Source: Rhodococcus sp. 14-1411-2a (GTDB taxonomy: Bacteria > Actinomycetota > Actinomycetes > Mycobacteriales > Mycobacteriaceae). Taken from it: 64,000 nt of DNA. Positions 1 to 8,673 of the stretch are shown piece by piece. Position 1 is the stretch's first letter, and every line of letters begins with the position of its first letter. The notes under the pieces are model-generated. The model ran no database searches, was not told the origin of the DNA, and saw only the letters and a list, made by a program, of their open reading frames with translations. The translations under genes were made by a program, and so were the position numbers. The stretch is taken from the NCBI RefSeq assembly GCF_002259485.1, contig NZ_NPGA01000008.1, forward strand, positions 186,001 through 250,000, written 5' to 3'.

Positions 1-578
1 ACCTCCGCCAGGACCTGAGCAGCCACGAACTCGGCCGCCGCGTCGGACACCGGATGAATCGGCGAGATCAATCGCCGCCCGCCGGCACGAGGACCGTAGC
101 CGTCCTCGATTCGTTGCCTGTTCCGACGGGATGCGGCGCGCCGCATCGACACGTCGGTCAGCCGGACCCCCTCGGGCACCACGAGGTACAGATTGCCTTC
201 ACGGAAACAGGCGATCGCCCCTTCGGACCGCAGAGTGTCGACGCCGTCGTCACTCACGGTGATCGATCGAGTCGCGGCATGCCCTGTGGACATACCCACG
301 CGTCCCAGCATCCCCACCAGCGCAGCAGCTACGGAGCCACAGCCGAGCACCGCAACCGTATCGGTGGACGAACTGGAGACGATGTGGCCTGCAGTGAGCA
401 ACGCGGACAGCGCCGTCTTCGGTTTCGCAGAGAGCTCCGCTTCGGTACCGGTCAAGGCCCCGGCCAGTTGGTCGAATTCCTCGTGGTCGAGCGCGAGTGC
501 GAAGTGTTCGTCGTCGGCGGTGCGGAGCACGAATCCCGAATCGGATTCGTACAGTTCGGTTCTGGGTGCAAGTTCCAT
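1..578 (-). CDS. Putative RiPP leader-binding / E1-like protein, 3' end outside window
   Basis: An open frame runs from ATG at 578 (or in-frame ATG at 605) to the window edge without a stop, giving at least 192 residues. The first ~70 residues read like a PqqD-like leader-recognition domain (ELAPRTELYESDSGFVLRT). A glycine-rich segment VAVLGCGSVAAALVGMLG at about residues 76-93 resembles the nucleotide-binding start of ThiF/E1-like proteins. This order is typical of the Ocin-ThiF-like partner of YcaO cyclodehydratases, which binds the leader of azole-forming or thioamide-forming RiPPs. It follows a 37-codon peptide gene on the same strand, which supports that role. The family call is from memory of the fold and the C-terminal half is missing, so another Rossmann protein is possible. 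Confidence 0.45.
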   Translation of the reverse strand, partial: MELAPRTELYESDSGFVLRTADDEHFALALDHEEFDQLAGALTGTEAELSAKPKTALSALLTAGHIVSSSSTDTVAVLGCGSVAAALVGMLGRVGMSTGHAATRSITVSDDGVDTLRSEGAIACFREGNLYLVVPEGVRLTDVSMRRAASRRNRQRIEDGYGPRAGGRRLISPIHPVSDAAAEFVAAQVLAE

Positions 579-592
579 GGCGATGGCCGGCC

Positions 593-622
593 GGGGTCTG
601 CACATCGTGGTGTGCAGACCCC
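593..622. terminator. Perfect 12-bp hairpin between peptide gene and next gene
   Basis: GGGGTCTGCACA (593-604) and TGTGCAGACCCC (611-622) form a perfect 12-bp inverted repeat with a 6-nt loop. On the minus strand it lies after the stop of the 37-aa peptide gene (630) and before or over the start of the next gene (605 or 578). There is no U-tract. It may attenuate transcription or protect the peptide mRNA end, so that more peptide is made than enzyme. This arrangement is common between RiPP precursor and enzyme genes. If the upstream ATG (605) is used, the loop overlaps the start codon. Confidence 0.6.
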
Positions 623-629
623 ACCGAGA

Positions 630-743
630 TCAGTCCTCGGCTTCCTCGAAGGGGTTCTCGACCAGGGCGTTGCTGTGGCCCGCGGAGTGTGTCGCCAGGG
701 ACACCGGTGACTGGATCGAACGGAACAGCTCGTTGTCGTTCAT
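630..743 (-). CDS. Small peptide, candidate RiPP precursor (37 aa)
   Basis: ATG at 743 is preceded by a strong ribosome-binding site (gaaggag) at 4-bp spacing, and the stop is at 632-630. The product begins MNDNELFRSIQSP, has a Ser/Thr/His-rich middle (SLATHSAGHSN), and ends in an acidic tail (NPFEEAED). There is no signal peptide or membrane segment. It is too short for usual ORF calls, but the good RBS, the hairpin after it and the putative leader-binding protein next to it make it a plausible RiPP precursor. A Zur-like palindrome lies about 80-105 bp upstream. The modified residues and the leader/core boundary are unknown. The alternative is a small regulatory or unrelated peptide. Confidence 0.6.
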   Translation of the reverse strand: MNDNELFRSIQSPVSLATHSAGHSNALVENPFEEAED

Positions 744-824
744 GGTTCTCCTTCTTCGATGGGCAAATCGGTTGCGGTGCAACCGATCCATGGACTCGAC
801 ATCGTCGAGGTGTCCGACCCTACG

Positions 825-848
825 TCAATCGATAATCATTTTCAATAA
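825..848. promoter_or_regulatory. Fur/Zur-like box upstream of the peptide gene
   Basis: An AT-rich site in an otherwise GC-rich region. On the minus strand it contains TTGAAAATGATTATCG, close to the mycobacterial Zur (FurB) operator TGAAAATGATTATCA as I recall it. It lies between the stop of the lipoprotein gene (852) and the start of the peptide gene (743), so it could give the peptide and downstream genes their own metal-controlled promoter. Actinobacteria normally use IdeR/DtxR for iron, so a Fur-type box here suggests zinc or another metal. Confidence 0.55.
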
Positions 849-851
849 GGT

Positions 852-1781
852 TCAGGAACTTTCGAGCTCGTTCGTCACCGTGGCGAGCACCAACCGCAAC
901 GAAATCGTTCCGCGCCCTGTTGCCCACACCCCGGCGTCCACCTCGATCACCCGATCGTTGCGGGCCGCCGCCACACCCGACCACAACGGATTGCTCGCCA
1001 GCCGGTCAGAGAGAGGCTCGCTGTCGGAACCTGATGAAAATGCCTGCGCGAAGACCACATCCGGATCCACCGACGCGATCTGCTCCACCGATACCGTCGC
1101 GAAGGCATCGGTTCCCGCCTGCCACGGATAGTCACTGACGTCCGTGAGAAGCGAGCCGACGGGGGTGTCGACGGAATCGACTCCGAGACTGCCCGGTTCG
1201 CCGTACATCGACAGCGTCGTGAGGCCTTTCCACTTGCCCGCGGCCGCATCGACCTCGGCGGTGAACGCCTCGGCAGCTGCGTCCGCCTGCTCCTGCCGAT
1301 CCGTCAAACGGCCTATCGTGCGGAGGAATTCGACCGAATCCCGCCAGGAAGTCGGATTCACCAGGTACATCGGTGCCACTTCCTCGACGGCACCCCGCAA
1401 CCCGTCCTGCACTCCCCCGAGTCCGATGACGAGGTCCGGTTCCGAGAGCGCGATGTCCTCGACGTTCTCTTCACCGAATCCGCCCGTGATCTTGCGCATG
1501 TCCACATCCGGACCGGCATAGCGGGGATCGGCCGCAAGTTCCTCTCGGTAAGCGACGGGGGTCATGCCCACCTCCTTCAACGCGTCGACACACATGAGCG
1601 TCAGGCACGCGATTCGCTCGACGGGTGCATCGAGCTCGATCACCGTTCCGCTGTCGTCGGTGACCGTGACCGCAGCTGCTGCGTCGGCGTTGCCCGCATC
1701 GGCGGTACCGCATGCCGCGAGCGCGAACACCGAGAGTGCGAGTGCGCCGAACAATCGAGAAAAGCCGGACAACTTGCGCAT
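852..1781 (-). CDS. FecB/BtuF-type metal-chelate-binding lipoprotein
   Basis: 309 residues from ATG at 1781, chosen because it has a strong RBS (aaaggag) and starts a clear lipoprotein signal: MRKLSGFSRLFG, hydrophobic core, lipobox LAAC about 20 residues in. The mature part has the layout of class III periplasmic binding proteins (APVERIACLTLMCVDALKEVG, then IALSEPDLVIGLGG and a C-terminal lobe). It should capture a siderophore, other metallophore or corrinoid outside the membrane and pass it to the permease pair encoded divergently at 1813-3776. Fur/Zur-like boxes lie at both ends of the gene. The ligand cannot be read from the sequence. Confidence 0.85.
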   Translation of the reverse strand: MRKLSGFSRLFGALALSVFALAACGTADAGNADAAAAVTVTDDSGTVIELDAPVERIACLTLMCVDALKEVGMTPVAYREELAADPRYAGPDVDMRKITGGFGEENVEDIALSEPDLVIGLGGVQDGLRGAVEEVAPMYLVNPTSWRDSVEFLRTIGRLTDRQEQADAAAEAFTAEVDAAAGKWKGLTTLSMYGEPGSLGVDSVDTPVGSLLTDVSDYPWQAGTDAFATVSVEQIASVDPDVVFAQAFSSGSDSEPLSDRLASNPLWSGVAAARNDRVIEVDAGVWATGRGTISLRLVLATVTNELESS

Positions 1782-1810
1782 GGGAACTCCTTTGCAGAAT
1801 GATGTATCCG

Positions 1811-1826
1811 CAATGATAATCATTAC
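1811..1826. promoter_or_regulatory. Fur/Zur-like palindrome in the divergent promoter region
   Basis: AATGAT-A-ATCATT (1812-1824) is a perfect 6-1-6 palindrome and matches the core of the classical Fur-family box. It sits 30 bp upstream of the lipoprotein start on the minus strand. On the plus strand it overlaps the best start codon of the permease gene (ATG 1813-1815). One regulator bound here could block both directions. The sequence does not match the IdeR consensus, so Zur or another Fur-family protein is the better guess. Confidence 0.6.
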
Positions 1827-2802
1827 CGATAGACGTTGGCGTGCTGCGGGTACCTGCGCCTGCGTCGCCGTGATCGTGCTGGCTCTGTGCCTGGGCGAGC
1901 CGACTCTCGATCCGGTGCGCGCGCTCGACGCCGTGCTCGACCCGTCGAATCCCCTCCACCCGCACGTCGCGCTCGTTCGACTGCCGCGTGTGCTGTTGGG
2001 CCTGGTGAGCGGTGCAGCCCTCGGACTGGCGGGAGCGTTGATGCAGGATGTACTGCGCAACAGGATTGCCGGTCCGGAGATTCTGGGCGTGTCCTCCGGT
2101 GCGGCTGTCGCGATGACGGCAGTTGCCGTGTTTGCACTTCCGTTGCCGCTGACAGCACTTCCCTATCTGGCACTGTGCGGCGCAGCTGTCGCCGGCATTG
2201 CGGTCATCACCACCGTTGGACCGACCAGCGACCCTCACCGAGTGGTACTGCTCGGTGCTGCGGTCAGCGCTCTCGCGTCGGGACTGGTCATTGCACTGGT
2301 CGGCCTGGGCACCGAAGGGAACCTGCCCCTGCTCTTTCGGTACCTGCTCGGCAGTCTCGGCGAGCGAGGTTGGAGCCATCTCGGTGTCGCAGCACCCTGG
2401 CTTGCCGTCTTCATCCCACTCGCTCTGCTCATGCGGCATCGGGTCGCTGCCCTTGCACTCGGAGACGATGTGGCTGCGGGACTGGGCATCTCCGTGATAC
2501 CGACCCGGCTGACCGCACTGGCGTGCGCCGCAGCGCTCACCGCCGCGGTGGCATCGGTGTGCGGTCCGGTTGCCTATGTCGCGTTGCTGTCCCCACATCT
2601 GGCTCGATGGGCTCTGCACACGACGAGTTCACGGCGGATATTCCTGCTCACGCCCATCATCGGCGCAGTCCTGCTCGCTACCGCCGATCTGGCGTCGCGA
2701 ATCTTGCTGTATCCGATCGAGATCCCCGTGGGCATCACGACGACACTGCTCGGCGTTCCCGTATTGCTGATGGCTCTGCACAGACAAGCCGCGACACGAT
2801 GA
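1813..2802 (+). CDS. FecCD-family metallophore ABC permease (first)
   Basis: From ATG 1813 the product is 329 residues, the usual FecCD length. An in-frame ATG at 1780 would add 11 residues. Neither start has a good RBS, and 1813 lies inside the Fur/Zur-like palindrome, which suggests a leaderless transcript. About nine or ten hydrophobic segments are visible. Family hallmarks are LPRVLLGLVSGAALGLAGALMQ, the NRIAGPEILGVSSGAA stretch and GPVAYVALLSPHLAR near the C-terminus. It overlaps the next permease by 4 bp (ATGA), so the two should form a heterodimeric channel with the ATPase at 3773. Confidence 0.88.
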   Translation: MIIITDRRWRAAGTCACVAVIVLALCLGEPTLDPVRALDAVLDPSNPLHPHVALVRLPRVLLGLVSGAALGLAGALMQDVLRNRIAGPEILGVSSGAAVAMTAVAVFALPLPLTALPYLALCGAAVAGIAVITTVGPTSDPHRVVLLGAAVSALASGLVIALVGLGTEGNLPLLFRYLLGSLGERGWSHLGVAAPWLAVFIPLALLMRHRVAALALGDDVAAGLGISVIPTRLTALACAAALTAAVASVCGPVAYVALLSPHLARWALHTTSSRRIFLLTPIIGAVLLATADLASRILLYPIEIPVGITTTLLGVPVLLMALHRQAATR

Positions 2803-3776
2803 AGGCTCGGCACCTCGTAATGATCGGGATGACGTGCATCGCCGGCCTGGTGATACTTCACCTCGTCTCGGGGCGCAGCGAACTCGAAACGGCCGAGGTG
2901 ATCAGAGTACTGACCGGCACGTCGGAGGTGCGGGCACACGAGATCATCGTCAGGAACTACCGTCTTCCACGAGTGCTCGTCGGATTGGTTGCCGGTGCAC
3001 TCCTCGCACTGGCAGGCGTGTTGCTGCAAGCAGTCATGCGAAACCCACTGGCCGAACCGTCGACGACAGGTGTGGGATCCGGTGCGGCGCTGGGCGTTGT
3101 GGTGTCGTTTCTGGTGTTGCCCGCCTCCGGTGCCGCACCCCTGGCGTCACTGCTCGGTGCCGCATGTGCCGGACTGGCTCTGTACCTGCTGGGCCGACGC
3201 TCCCTGGCGGTCGCGGGAATCCTCATCGGCGCTGTCCTGTCCGCGGTGACATCACTGCTGCTCGTCGTCGATGCACAACCGATGGGCGTGGTTCTTCGAT
3301 GGCTGATCGGCTCTCTCAATGCAAGGACAACGGACGACTGGAATCGATTGTGGCCCTGGGCAATGGTACTGATACCGGCCGGTCTGCTGTGTGCTTCGCG
3401 CGCAAATGCGCTCGTGCTGGGCGACGCGACATCCACCGGCCTCGGGATTCGCCCCCACAGGACTCGAATGTTGCTGCTCGCCATCGCGGTACTGGCCACG
3501 TCGACGGCGGTCACGGCCGCGGGTGCCGTCGCGTTCGTCGGATTGATCGCCCCCCACGCCGCACGGGCCGCCCTCGGCGGCGACCACAGGGGACTGATTC
3601 CGGTCAGCGTGATCGGTGGTGCCGTGCTGCTGTCCGCCGCAGACCTTCTCGCCTTCAGTGCCTCGATCGACATACCAGGCAACGGACCAGACGTATCGGG
3701 ACTCCCGGTCGGGGCTGTGACGGCACTCGTCGGCGCTCCCTATCTCATCTGGCTGATCCGAAAGGATGCTCGATGA
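2799..3776 (+). CDS. FecCD-family metallophore ABC permease (second)
   Basis: 325 residues. The start ATG overlaps the stop of the first permease (ATGA) and its own stop overlaps the ATPase start the same way, so the three genes are translationally coupled. It shows the same family signature (RLPRVLVGLVAGALLALAGV, RNPLAEPSTTGVGSGAALG, AVAFVGLIAPHAAR). The coupling of permease-permease-ATPase with a divergent binding protein is the standard layout for iron-siderophore, haem or B12 importers. Substrate unknown. Confidence 0.88.
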   Translation: MKARHLVMIGMTCIAGLVILHLVSGRSELETAEVIRVLTGTSEVRAHEIIVRNYRLPRVLVGLVAGALLALAGVLLQAVMRNPLAEPSTTGVGSGAALGVVVSFLVLPASGAAPLASLLGAACAGLALYLLGRRSLAVAGILIGAVLSAVTSLLLVVDAQPMGVVLRWLIGSLNARTTDDWNRLWPWAMVLIPAGLLCASRANALVLGDATSTGLGIRPHRTRMLLLAIAVLATSTAVTAAGAVAFVGLIAPHAARAALGGDHRGLIPVSVIGGAVLLSAADLLAFSASIDIPGNGPDVSGLPVGAVTALVGAPYLIWLIRKDAR

Positions 3777-4564
3777 CGGAATACGTCACCACACCGATTC
3801 TCGAGACCGTCGACCTCGGTCTCGGGTATCGCAATCGGACGGTATCCGAACACCTCGACATCGCCATCGAGAAGAGAACGGTCACCGCGCTGGTCGGCCC
3901 CAACGGATCCGGCAAGTCGACGTTGCTGATGGCTTTGGCCAGGGTGTTGGTCCCTCGCCACGGACAGGTGCGGCTGGACGGCATCCCTGTGCGTGACCGA
4001 TCGTCGATCGAGACAGCCAGAAGACTTGCGATCCTGCCTCAGACCGCTGTCGCACCGCCCGGGCTACGCGTCCGCGAGCTGGTCGAGCAGGGTCGATATC
4101 CGCGGCTCGGTGCGATGTCGATGCTCAGACGGCACGACGACGAGGCCATGCACACGGCGATGCGCTCGACCGGAATCCTCCACCTCGCCGACCGCACTGT
4201 CGAATCGCTCTCCGGCGGTGAGCGTCAACGTACCTGGATCGCAATGGCTTTGGCCCAGGAAACCGAAGTGCTGCTACTGGACGAACCCACCACGTATCTC
4301 GACGTGCGTCATCAGATCGACGTGATGGAACTGGTCGTCGATCTGGTCGAGAATCGAGGGAAGACCGTGGTGATGGTGCTGCACGATCTCAATCAGGCGG
4401 CGCGGTACTGCGACCGGATCGTGGCCATGCGTGATGGTGCGATCGTCGCCGACGGGCATCCCAGCGACATCGTGACACCGACGCTGCTGGACGAGGTATT
4501 CGAGATCCGCGCCCGAGTAGTGACAGATCCGGTTGTCGGTAGACCGATGTTCATCGCCGAGTGA
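3773..4564 (+). CDS. FecE-type metallophore ABC transporter ATPase
   Basis: 263 residues with all ABC motifs: Walker A GPNGSGKST at about 41-49, Q-loop LPQTA, signature LSGGERQR, Walker B EVLLLDEPT and switch His in VLHDLNQAA. The length and the GLGYRN start are typical of FecE/FepC ATPases. It is the last gene of the 1813-4564 operon and powers import through the two permeases. Ten bases separate it from the convergent TetR gene. Confidence 0.9.
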   Translation: MTEYVTTPILETVDLGLGYRNRTVSEHLDIAIEKRTVTALVGPNGSGKSTLLMALARVLVPRHGQVRLDGIPVRDRSSIETARRLAILPQTAVAPPGLRVRELVEQGRYPRLGAMSMLRRHDDEAMHTAMRSTGILHLADRTVESLSGGERQRTWIAMALAQETEVLLLDEPTTYLDVRHQIDVMELVVDLVENRGKTVVMVLHDLNQAARYCDRIVAMRDGAIVADGHPSDIVTPTLLDEVFEIRARVVTDPVVGRPMFIAE

Positions 4565-6486: not shown

Positions 6487-6562
6487 TGCGCGCCTCGGGC
6501 GCGCTGCGCCGTCGGGTGATCCCCGGCGGCTCGTTGCTGTCGGAACCCGAAGGACATCCCAC

Positions 6563-7609
6563 GTGCTCAACGTTCGTCGCCGCGCAGGCACCCTCGCCGC
6601 CGCTGCTGCCCTGGTCGGATCGCTCGTCGCGTGCGGAGCCTCCGAGGAGGTTCCCGAAGCGGTCTCGGACACCACCGCAGGTGGGACCACCTACCCTCTG
6701 ACGATCGACAACTGCGGAGAGTCGGTGACCTTCGACTCGGCACCTCAGCGGGTGGTGTCGCTGGATCAGAACTCCACCGAAATTCTCCTCTCGCTCGGCG
6801 TGCAGGACCGAATGGTCGGCACCGCGTCCTGGACCGATCCGGTCCGCGAGAACCTCGCCGACGCGAACGCCTCGGTTCCCCGACTGGCCGACAACGCCCC
6901 CACCTACGAGGTCGTGGTCGATACCGAACCCGATCTCGTCACCGCATCGTTCGGACGCCACTTCGAGCAAGGCGGCGTCGCTCAGCGGTCCCGCTTCTCC
7001 GAAACCGGTGCGGCCACGTATCTTTCACCCACCGACTGCGACGCCGGTCGCAGTGTCAACGGGGGCAACACCCGAACGACTCCGCTCACGATGGAGTCGC
7101 TGTACCAGGAGATCACCGAACTCGCGGCGATCTTCGACGTCAACGAGCGCGGTGCCGAGTTCGTCGACGAACTGAAGACCCGCATGGCCGACGCCACCGC
7201 GACCACTGCCGAATCGGATGTCTCCGTGGCATTCTGGTTCGCGGACACCAAGAGTCCGTACATCGCAGGCGGACGGGGATCGGCCGATCTACTCGCCAGA
7301 ACGGTCGGTATGACGAACGTCTTCGCCGACACCGACGACGACTGGCCTGCCGTCGGCTGGGAGACCATGGTGGATCGGGATCCGACCGTCCTGGTACTGG
7401 GAGACCTGGCGCGCAACCGTTTTCCCGGTGACCTGCTCGCCGACAAGATCGCATTCCTCGAGTCCGACCCCGTCACGAGCACGATGGCCGCCGTCCGAGA
7501 CAAGCGCTACATCTCCTTGCACGGTGCGGAGATGAACCCGTCGATCCGGGCCGTCGACGGTGTCGAGAAGGTGTCGGCCGGACTGCGAGACCTGGGACTG
7601 TCGTCCTGA
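6563..7609 (+). CDS. Iron-siderophore-binding lipoprotein (FecB/FepB type)
   Basis: 348 residues from GTG 6563, chosen because it gives a proper lipoprotein signal: basic start NVRRRAGTL, hydrophobic stretch, lipobox SLVAC about 20-25 residues in. A weak RBS (gaagga) precedes it. Binding-protein features include APQRVVSLDQNSTEILLSLG, EPDLVTASFG and a C-terminal RDKRYISLHGAEMNPSI segment. It delivers a ferric siderophore to the permease-ATPase genes immediately downstream. The upstream IdeR-like half-site suggests iron control. Confidence 0.85.
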   Translation: MLNVRRRAGTLAAAAALVGSLVACGASEEVPEAVSDTTAGGTTYPLTIDNCGESVTFDSAPQRVVSLDQNSTEILLSLGVQDRMVGTASWTDPVRENLADANASVPRLADNAPTYEVVVDTEPDLVTASFGRHFEQGGVAQRSRFSETGAATYLSPTDCDAGRSVNGGNTRTTPLTMESLYQEITELAAIFDVNERGAEFVDELKTRMADATATTAESDVSVAFWFADTKSPYIAGGRGSADLLARTVGMTNVFADTDDDWPAVGWETMVDRDPTVLVLGDLARNRFPGDLLADKIAFLESDPVTSTMAAVRDKRYISLHGAEMNPSIRAVDGVEKVSAGLRDLGLSS

Positions 7610-7674
7610 CCGCGACCATCACCCGTCGGCGCTCCGCCCAGCGATCGCAGACCTCCCGCAGCCTGTGGCGTTGG

Positions 7675-8673
7675 GTGTTCGCCCTGCTGGGCGGGGTCGT
7701 GCTGTGCGTGGTGTCGGTTCTCGTCGCCATCACCCTCGGGCCGGCGAACATCTCGCTGGTCAACGTGCGCGACGTGGTGCTCAACCATCTCGGCATCACC
7801 GACATCCCGGTGAAGGTATCGAAGAACGCGATCATCTGGGAGGAGCGACTCCCCCGTGCGCTCGTCGCTGCAGCAAGTGGCGTCGGACTCGGCATCTGCG
7901 GCGTCATCATGCAGTCGCTTCTGCGTAATCCCCTGGCGGACCCGTTCGTGCTCGGTGTCTCCTCGGGTGCCTCGACGGGTGCCGTCGTGGTCGGTGTCCT
8001 CGGTGTCGGCGGGGCCGCGCTCGGGCTGTCCGGTGGTGCGTTCATCGGTGCACTCGTCGCGTTCGGCCTGGTGTTGTTTCTCGCCCGAATGTCCGGCAGC
8101 GGAAACGATCGCGTGATTCTCGCCGGTGTTGCAACCACTCAATTGTTCTCGGCCCTGACGTCTTTCGTGATCTTCGCGTTCGCCGACTCGGACGAGACGC
8201 GCGGCGTGATGTTCTGGCTGCTCGGTTCGTTCGAGGGTGTGCGATGGAACGACGTCGTGCTGTGTGTGACCGTGGCCGGCATCGGCGCGGTGGTGTGTTG
8301 TTACTACGCGTACGTCCTCGACGCGTTCGCGTTCGGCAACTCGGTGGCGTCCTCGCTCGGCTTCGACGTCAAGAAGGTCCGATTGGCTCTGCTCGTCGGC
8401 ACCGCCCTGATCACCGCGACATTGGTCAGCGTCGCCGGTGCGATCGGTTTCGTCGGCCTCATTCTTCCGCACGCCGCGCGACTGTTGGTAGGGCCCAACC
8501 ACAGCCGCCTCGTGCCCACCACTGCCGTCATCGGCGCGATCTTCATGGTGTGGGTCGACGCCGTCTCCCGGGTCGCGTTTGCGCCGACCCCACTTCCGGT
8601 CGGCGTCGGAACGGCGTTGGTCGGCGTTCCGGCCTTCATCGCGATCATGGCTCGAAGGAGGGGAATTCGATGA
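7675..8673 (+). CDS. FecCD-family siderophore ABC permease
   Basis: 332 residues from GTG 7675. That start falls inside the first membrane segment (WRWVFALLGG), so the true start may lie upstream, where only a CTG at 7606 (overlapping the previous stop) is available. About nine to ten membrane segments are visible. Family motifs are RLPRALVAAASGVGLGICGV, RNPLADPFVLGVSSGAS and AIGFVGLILPHAARLL. Only one permease gene is present, so the channel is presumably a homodimer. It overlaps the ATPase by 4 bp. Confidence 0.85.
   Translation: MFALLGGVVLCVVSVLVAITLGPANISLVNVRDVVLNHLGITDIPVKVSKNAIIWEERLPRALVAAASGVGLGICGVIMQSLLRNPLADPFVLGVSSGASTGAVVVGVLGVGGAALGLSGGAFIGALVAFGLVLFLARMSGSGNDRVILAGVATTQLFSALTSFVIFAFADSDETRGVMFWLLGSFEGVRWNDVVLCVTVAGIGAVVCCYYAYVLDAFAFGNSVASSLGFDVKKVRLALLVGTALITATLVSVAGAIGFVGLILPHAARLLVGPNHSRLVPTTAVIGAIFMVWVDAVSRVAFAPTPLPVGVGTALVGVPAFIAIMARRRGIR

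Follow-up and report, generated by a model that had tools for sequence, protein, structure and literature searches.

A streptamidine-family gene cluster with predicted Zur boxes in Rhodococcus sp. 14-1411-2a and its plausible role in zinc acquisition

At the left end of a 64,000-nucleotide stretch of the 5.6-Mb genome of Rhodococcus sp. 14-1411-2a (GCF_002259485.1, contig NZ_NPGA01000008.1, C25, positions 186,001 to 250,000; hereafter the window), and in the sequence fetched to its left (L002), lies a cluster of genes for a precursor peptide (AmiA), a YcaO enzyme with its accompanying proteins and a FecBCDE-type importer. Judged by its sequence, the cluster is a member of the known streptamidine (ami) family of ribosomally synthesized and post-translationally modified peptides (RiPPs) and not a new kind, because this order of FecBCDE, precursor and YcaO genes was published in 2021 (PMC8442711). 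The boxes conserved at its promoters indicate that it is very probably under the control of Zur, and we propose, with a probability of roughly 0.6, that the Zur-controlled cluster acts in zinc acquisition. The gene content, namely zinc-starvation-type boxes together with a major facilitator superfamily (MFS) gene and FecBCDE genes, fits the pattern of a zincophore system, and a zincophore function of the ami product is plausible, a suggestion made stronger by the Zur boxes that the ami promoters carry.

An earlier note on the window, made from its letters alone, had described a lipoprotein gene, two FecCD permease genes, an ATPase gene and a 37-codon peptide gene, all of which are present, and had suggested a metal-regulated RiPP of a gene order it did not know. 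In this last point it erred, since the order is that of the streptamidine cluster, for which the main text of the 2021 paper already proposes metal import (PMC8442711). The note had taken as counting against its idea a lack of maturation genes beyond the left edge, a match of the protein encoded at 578-1 to an unrelated family, or a peptide without conservation in related genomes; none of these outcomes arose, and a YcaO gene, an S15 hydrolase gene, an MFS exporter gene and a SagB-like dehydrogenase gene were all found left of position 1 (Table 1). The 37-aa AmiA (MNDNELFRSIQSPVSLATHSAGHSNALVENPFEEAED), whose gene is preceded by GAAGAAGGAGAACC, scored 51.8 bits with the precursor model NF040714 ('streptamidine family RiPP'; cut-off 40), which bears out the reading of the peptide as a RiPP precursor; an unknown RiPP class was set aside on this match. 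The same model matched in 5 of 61 relatives, 5 of 37 genus genomes, 20 of 393 class genomes and 48 of 393 genomes of the genus of G095, samples that overlap in part and include the source genome where it belongs; there was no match in 14 control genomes.

An alignment of AmiD with 10 other AmiD proteins (49-69% identical to it) identified 281 relatives among named genomes. The analysis covers the best 80 of these, 52 bearing a Streptomyces label. The amiA gene was present in 77 of these 80 loci; the other three (L149, L157, and L181) end early, without amiA, and were dropped, leaving 77 loci. When the 80 loci were joined with 20 loci of an earlier set and L002, the 101 loci held AmiD in 101, AmiC in 100, AmiE in 100, AmiB in 99, FecE in 97, FecC in 95, FecB in 81 and MFS in 34; unrelated paralogues may be among the FecE and MFS proteins counted.

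The Zur motif TGANNATSATNNTCA, of 7-1-7 layout, was derived from chromatin immunoprecipitation on microarrays (ChIP-chip) with Zur in S. coelicolor (PMC5472717). The palindromes that the earlier note had seen before the peptide gene and before the transporter genes proved real, with 1 and 2 mismatches to this published motif, respectively. Because a single site in one genome is not conclusive, it is conservation in relatives that bears the weight of the evidence. Within 150 bp upstream of amiA, the best match to the motif had 0, 1, 2 and at least 3 mismatches in 37, 26, 12 and 2 of the 77 loci, whereas chance would yield 0.12, 0.45 and 1.61 loci at up to 0, 1 and 2 mismatches, as calculated from the motif density over the remaining 1,542,491 positions in these loci. 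Shuffled amiA upstream regions gave exactly 0, 1 and 2 mismatches in 0, 0.1 and 1.4% of cases. The 77 loci contain 67 further places with 0-1 mismatch, 37 of which fall in a single 250-bp bin, 4.0-4.25 kb upstream of amiA, at the beginning of the fec genes in Streptomyces. At the FecB promoters, 0, 1, 2, 3, 4 and 5 mismatches were counted in 15, 42, 7, 9, 4 and 4 of 81 loci (64 of 81 at 2 or fewer), compared with about 6% at 2 or fewer in random windows of the same loci; a simple lipobox rule defined each FecB start, and the count leaves aside the 20 of 101 loci in which FecB gave no match. With a general Zur consensus, 53 of 54 amiA upstream regions of the earlier locus set were within 4 mismatches, a count that includes repeats of the same locus and follows the removal of 5 of 59 loci for want of a usable amiA.

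The predicted box upstream of the Rhodococcus amiA overlaps TTGAAA (845-840), and TAGGGT (822-817) follows 17 nt further on. TTGA in the same register with TANNNT at 16-18 nt was found in 8 of the 77 loci, and TANNNT starting at the box end in 56, two counts that may overlap and were made without a shuffle control. Either promoter layout would be compatible with repression by blocking of RNA polymerase.

Within 3 mismatches of TGAAAATGATTTTCA, the source genome has only two places at 2 mismatches, one of which is the amiA promoter; the strict pattern TGANAATSATTNTCA at up to 1 mismatch likewise gave two places, one of them the amiA promoter, and the reversed pattern gave none. In 15 ami genomes (about 92 Mb), all chosen for having amiA, the strict pattern at up to 1 mismatch occurred at 52 places and its reverse at 0. 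By their position relative to amiA, 17 of the 52 were assigned to amiA or fec promoters of ami clusters, in 14 of the 15 genomes, G285 being the one without such a place; in G022, G024 and G026, which belong to the same genus, the strict pattern has no exact site other than the ami promoter. Eight of the 35 non-ami places were read, seven in the set of ami genomes plus L010 of the source genome. Five of the seven precede a gene for ZnuA (PF01297, E-values 1.7e-68 to 1.2e-79), in five of the 15 genomes; the remaining two are L222, which lies in an open frame resembling an integrase by eye, and L214, which gave nothing clear. A related site, CGAAAACGATTGTCA, was found in the source genome between cobW and rpmB, a typical place for a Zur target, with L33 and S14 genes, recognized by eye, after the site. 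The source genome also encodes a Fur-family protein (PF01475, E-value 2.1e-35) adjoining an ArsR protein (L024), a neighbour from which we take it to be Zur. On the strength of conservation across loci and of the genome-wide pattern scans, a chance palindrome was set aside.

These data suggest a model in which two promoters would carry Zur boxes that Zur leaves when zinc is scarce, so that fecB and amiA-amiB-amiC-amiD-MFS would be expressed, as would the divergently oriented permease and ATPase genes. AmiB would present AmiA to the YcaO enzyme AmiD, a six-membered amidine would be formed between residues 1 and 2 of the THSAGH core, the AmiE dehydrogenase being required here as in streptamidine formation, and the AmiC hydrolase would remove the leader. 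The MFS protein would export the peptide, which would hold zinc via two conserved imidazoles and the amidine, and FecBCDE would re-import the zinc complex. In this scheme we infer Zur binding, zinc binding, export and re-import, and the amidine chemistry with the need for AmiB-AmiE and AmiF is carried over by analogy from the main text of the streptamidine paper (PMC8442711). For the dehydrated THSAGH a [M+H]+ of 591.2634 is predicted by the same calculation that gives the published 647.3260 for HLSATH.

Aligned on SNALV, the cores of 92 distinct precursors read [HT]-x-S-A-[STG]-H, with Ser3, Ala4 and His6 kept in all 92; the conservation of SNALV was partly built into the precursor search, and two of the three search patterns made no requirement of His6. 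Exactly one His stands within core positions 1-2 in 92 of 92, either as His1 with Leu, Asp, Asn, Ala or Gln at position 2 (82) or as Thr1-His2 (10). This His changes position yet is never lost in the set, which leads us to infer a role as a ligand and not as a recognition residue of fixed position. Among the best 80 AmiD loci, the THSAGH core is common to Rhodococcus, Williamsia, one Nocardioides, Pimelobacter and a record labelled Kitasatospora arboriphila; a second Nocardioides and Modestobacter carry THSATH.

Two observations on the distribution of the cores stand apart. In the record of Kitasatospora arboriphila NRRL B-24581 (L111), the precursor and the 60 nt after amiA are identical to those of two Williamsia muralis records (L110 and L112), so this record reflects either a mislabelled or mixed assembly or a recent transfer. 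In addition, two ami types occur within one genus, because genome G003 of the same genus holds an HLSASH-type cluster (L089) with a FecC permease and FecE; FecB and MFS gave no match in that locus.

Several points weigh against a role in zinc acquisition. The amiA upstream regions form only 12 groups at under 65% identity (0, 1 and 2 mismatches in 8, 2 and 2 of them), and 17 of the 81 FecB promoters have at least 3 mismatches. At 1 mismatch or fewer, the published motif matches the source genome at 107 places and is too loose within one genome, which is why the stricter pattern and conservation were used; the strict-pattern search of that genome did not return a znuA promoter, and no zinc gene was recognized beside its other place (L010). 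The main text of the streptamidine paper reports that the purified compound bound none of seven metal ions, zinc and copper included, that its chrome azurol S (CAS) test was negative and that metal starvation brought out no phenotype in the amiD (YcaO) mutant (PMC8442711). The substantial yield of streptamidine described there would be unexpected under tight zinc repression unless the medium was zinc-poor, and the main text names no medium. Its authors favour signalling or development (PMC8442711). In accordance with them, a Zur-controlled peptide that carries no zinc, and instead serves as a zinc-starvation signal or developmental factor or in intracellular zinc handling, with the importer used for sensing or recycling, is the strongest competitor, if clearly a less probable one: all the Zur evidence fits it equally well, and the negative assays speak for it, but two His are retained in 92 of 92 distinct precursors though one changes place, and the cluster holds a FecBCDE-type importer together with an export gene.

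The remaining alternatives replace zinc by another metal or signal. Fur-family palindromes resemble each other and Zur binding here is predicted from sequence, which lends some room to another Fur-family regulator at the boxes; there is only a slight chance of this, given that ZnuA promoters in five of the 15 genomes are also picked up by the strict pattern and that ChIP-chip with Zur itself, in S. coelicolor, is the source of the motif (PMC5472717). An iron siderophore system under iron control would agree with the importer proteins, which match iron-siderophore families, and with the resemblance of the MFS protein to EntS, below the cut-off of that model (Table 1). The IdeR-type box that such control calls for, searched with a general IdeR consensus, was found in none of the 77 amiA upstream regions (8-10 of 19 mismatches), and the boxes match the Zur motif, as the earlier note had held in calling them Zur-type rather than iron-type; the iron system was set aside for want of an IdeR-type box. 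His-rich peptides bind copper, and at the source locus, the one examined for this, a PepSY_TM - PCuAC - Dyp-peroxidase group lies just left of the cluster, features that would suit a carrier of copper or another metal. This reading, like the iron one, is very improbable in view of the Zur-type boxes, and the CAS result for streptamidine and its failure to bind copper argue against the iron and the copper reading, respectively (main text of PMC8442711).

The negative assays of 2021 are the chief difficulty for zinc acquisition. They may have tested the wrong form of the product: streptamidine shows no oxidation, yet it requires both the dehydrogenase and the importer, a combination that would fit import followed by cutting. 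The streptamidine authors give loss of an oxidized part as one option (PMC8442711, main text); such a loss may be linked to import, and the importer deletion could act through regulation instead. A bolder version, which we regard as doubtful and a little less probable than the signalling alternative, is that the motif-A streptamidine family comprises widespread ribosomal zincophores whose true product is a larger, oxidized bis-histidine zinc peptide imported by AmiF and cut inside, the isolated streptamidine being its spent remnant. It would jointly explain the essential dehydrogenase and importer without oxidation, the lack of metal binding and the Zur boxes on amiA and fecB. If zinc acquisition is the function, the non-ribosomal coelibactin would gain a ribosomal class of zinc carriers as its counterpart, and the conditions or the product form tested would account for the negative results with metals. 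The conserved Zur boxes make the role of this abundant YcaO-linked peptide family directly testable.

Ribosomal metallophores made by multinuclear non-heme iron-dependent oxidative enzymes (MNIOs) are likewise modified ribosomal peptides that handle metals, as proposed here for the ami product; they depend on other enzymes, mostly concern copper and are not known to carry a YcaO amidine. The closest described system is the ami cluster of Streptomyces albidoflavus J1074, with the same precursor family, E1-like AmiB, hydrolase, YcaO protein, dehydrogenase and FecBCDE importer (PMC8442711). According to the main text of that paper, streptamidine has the core HLSATH, whose His1 amine and Leu2 carbonyl are joined in a six-membered amidine, and its production is abolished by deletion of amiB, amiC, amiD, amiE or amiF1-4; the major gene set consists of FecBCDE (amiF1-4), amiA-E and two ABC (ATP-binding cassette) transporter genes, and amiT1-T2 are called important, not essential. 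The 2021 survey counted 237 precursors, Firmicutes included; no other peptide family was as abundant next to standalone actinobacterial YcaO proteins (PMC8442711). Both the Rhodococcus and the J1074 precursors have core Ser3, Ala4 and His6 plus SNALVENPF, but the THSAGH core of Rhodococcus has its His at position 2 instead of 1; moreover, amiD is followed by an MFS gene in Rhodococcus, whereas an ABC pair (AmiT1-T2, in the major Streptomyces type) is described in the paper, and the Rhodococcus permease genes are divergent from fecB-amiA, unlike in J1074. Coelibactin of S. coelicolor is likewise Zur-repressed and a proposed secreted zinc carrier, whereas it is non-ribosomal and made by enzymes unrelated to ami (PMC5472717). 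Klebsazolicin and bottromycin share the YcaO-made amidine with streptamidine, but are antibacterial or ribosome-targeting, and the main text of PMC8442711 gives no importer or Zur link for them. The word 'zur' occurs 0 times in that main text, and no report of Zur or zinc control of streptamidine was found by title or abstract start in the open-access literature, a scope outside which lie subscription papers and supplements, where its regulation may be in print.

The AmiB protein, in which the earlier note had seen PqqD-like and ThiF-like sequence, is supported as such by its predicted fold, and only weakly by its sequence match. Against the leader-binding family TIGR03882 it scored weakly (24.2 bits, below the 36.9 cut-off), and profile searches were also weak, with TruD at an E-value of 0.0097 and LynD at 0.029, while a response regulator of no relation scored just as well (0.0098). 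The structure model, built from 48 sequences, has a mean pLDDT of 91.3 and a pTM of 0.71, and matched a chain of the McbBCD microcin synthetase (E-value 1.3e-6; presumably McbB, since the chain carries no name in the result table), as well as LynD-type heterocyclase entries (from 7.7e-6) and MccB. As the TM-scores among the 27 best structure matches are 0.33-0.51 of the query, the modelled AmiB shares its domain plan with E1-like RiPP enzymes and is not a close copy of them. These results agree with the PqqD/ThiF idea of the earlier note and with the Phyre2 result given by the streptamidine authors (PMC8442711).

An RNA hairpin is predicted after amiA (575-632; dG -31.9, z -3.67), and in the 60 nt after amiA a hairpin signal of z < -1.5 was found in 64 of the 77 loci. 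It is probably an attenuator giving more precursor than enzymes. RNA structure between the box and amiA was not general, reaching z < -1.5 in 18 of 77 loci.

Table 1. Features of the ami cluster and importer genes. Plain positions are those of the window; window position w corresponds to 15000+w in L002, and strands refer to the window.
Feature	Position	Strand	Basis or remark
amiB start	1..578	-	Runs 100 bases beyond left edge, to L002:14901; E1-like YcaO partner protein
Hairpin, 12-bp, between amiA and amiB	593..622	-	Folding of 575-632
amiA, 37-aa precursor	630..743	-	NF040714 match; core THSAGH then SNALVENPF
Zur-type box (predicted), amiA promoter	830..844	-	TGAAAATGATTATCG, 1 mismatch to published motif
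FecB-type substrate-binding lipoprotein (amiF)	852..1781	-	Peripla_BP_2, E 9.5e-22
FecCD permease 1	1813..2802	+	PF01032, E 7.1e-73
Zur-type box (predicted)	1814..1828		TGATAATCATTACCG, 2 mismatches; between divergent lipoprotein and permease genes, at permease 1 start codon
FecCD permease 2	2799..3776	+	PF01032, E 2.6e-72
ABC ATPase, FecE type	3773..4564	+	ABC_tran, E 4.3e-32; FecE model 310.8 bits, below cut-off 375
Hydrolase (AmiC)	L002:13573-14904	as amiA	Peptidase_S15, E 2e-22
YcaO protein (AmiD)	L002:12218-13576	as amiA	YcaO, E 8.7e-42; SagD-family model 193.5 bits, cut-off 219.25
MFS protein	L002:10995-12221	as amiA	After amiD; MFS_3, E 6.4e-26; EntS model 107.5 bits, cut-off 324
SagB-type dehydrogenase (AmiE)	about L002:10302-11045	opposite amiA	SagB domain model 115.2 bits, cut-off 78.4

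The amiB, hydrolase, YcaO and MFS genes overlap successively by ATGA, ATGA and GTGA. Adjoining the ami cluster, genes for PepSY_TM, PCuAC copper-chaperone and Dyp-peroxidase proteins stand in a row at L002:5874-9164 and are possibly copper-related. A second binding-protein lipoprotein gene with a FecCD permease gene lies nearby in the window (6530-8673; PF01497 and PF01032), outside the ami cluster judging by relatives.

Motif-B relatives (NF040715) were found in 4 of 393 class genomes; they are without the two-His core and have a FecC permease and FecE in all four loci. No clear Zur box was seen in the four motif-B loci read, and the Zur and zincophore proposals are confined to the other relatives. 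In three of the four (L204, L205, and L206), a palindrome, YGGAAAYSRTTTCCR, lies just upstream of the precursor gene.

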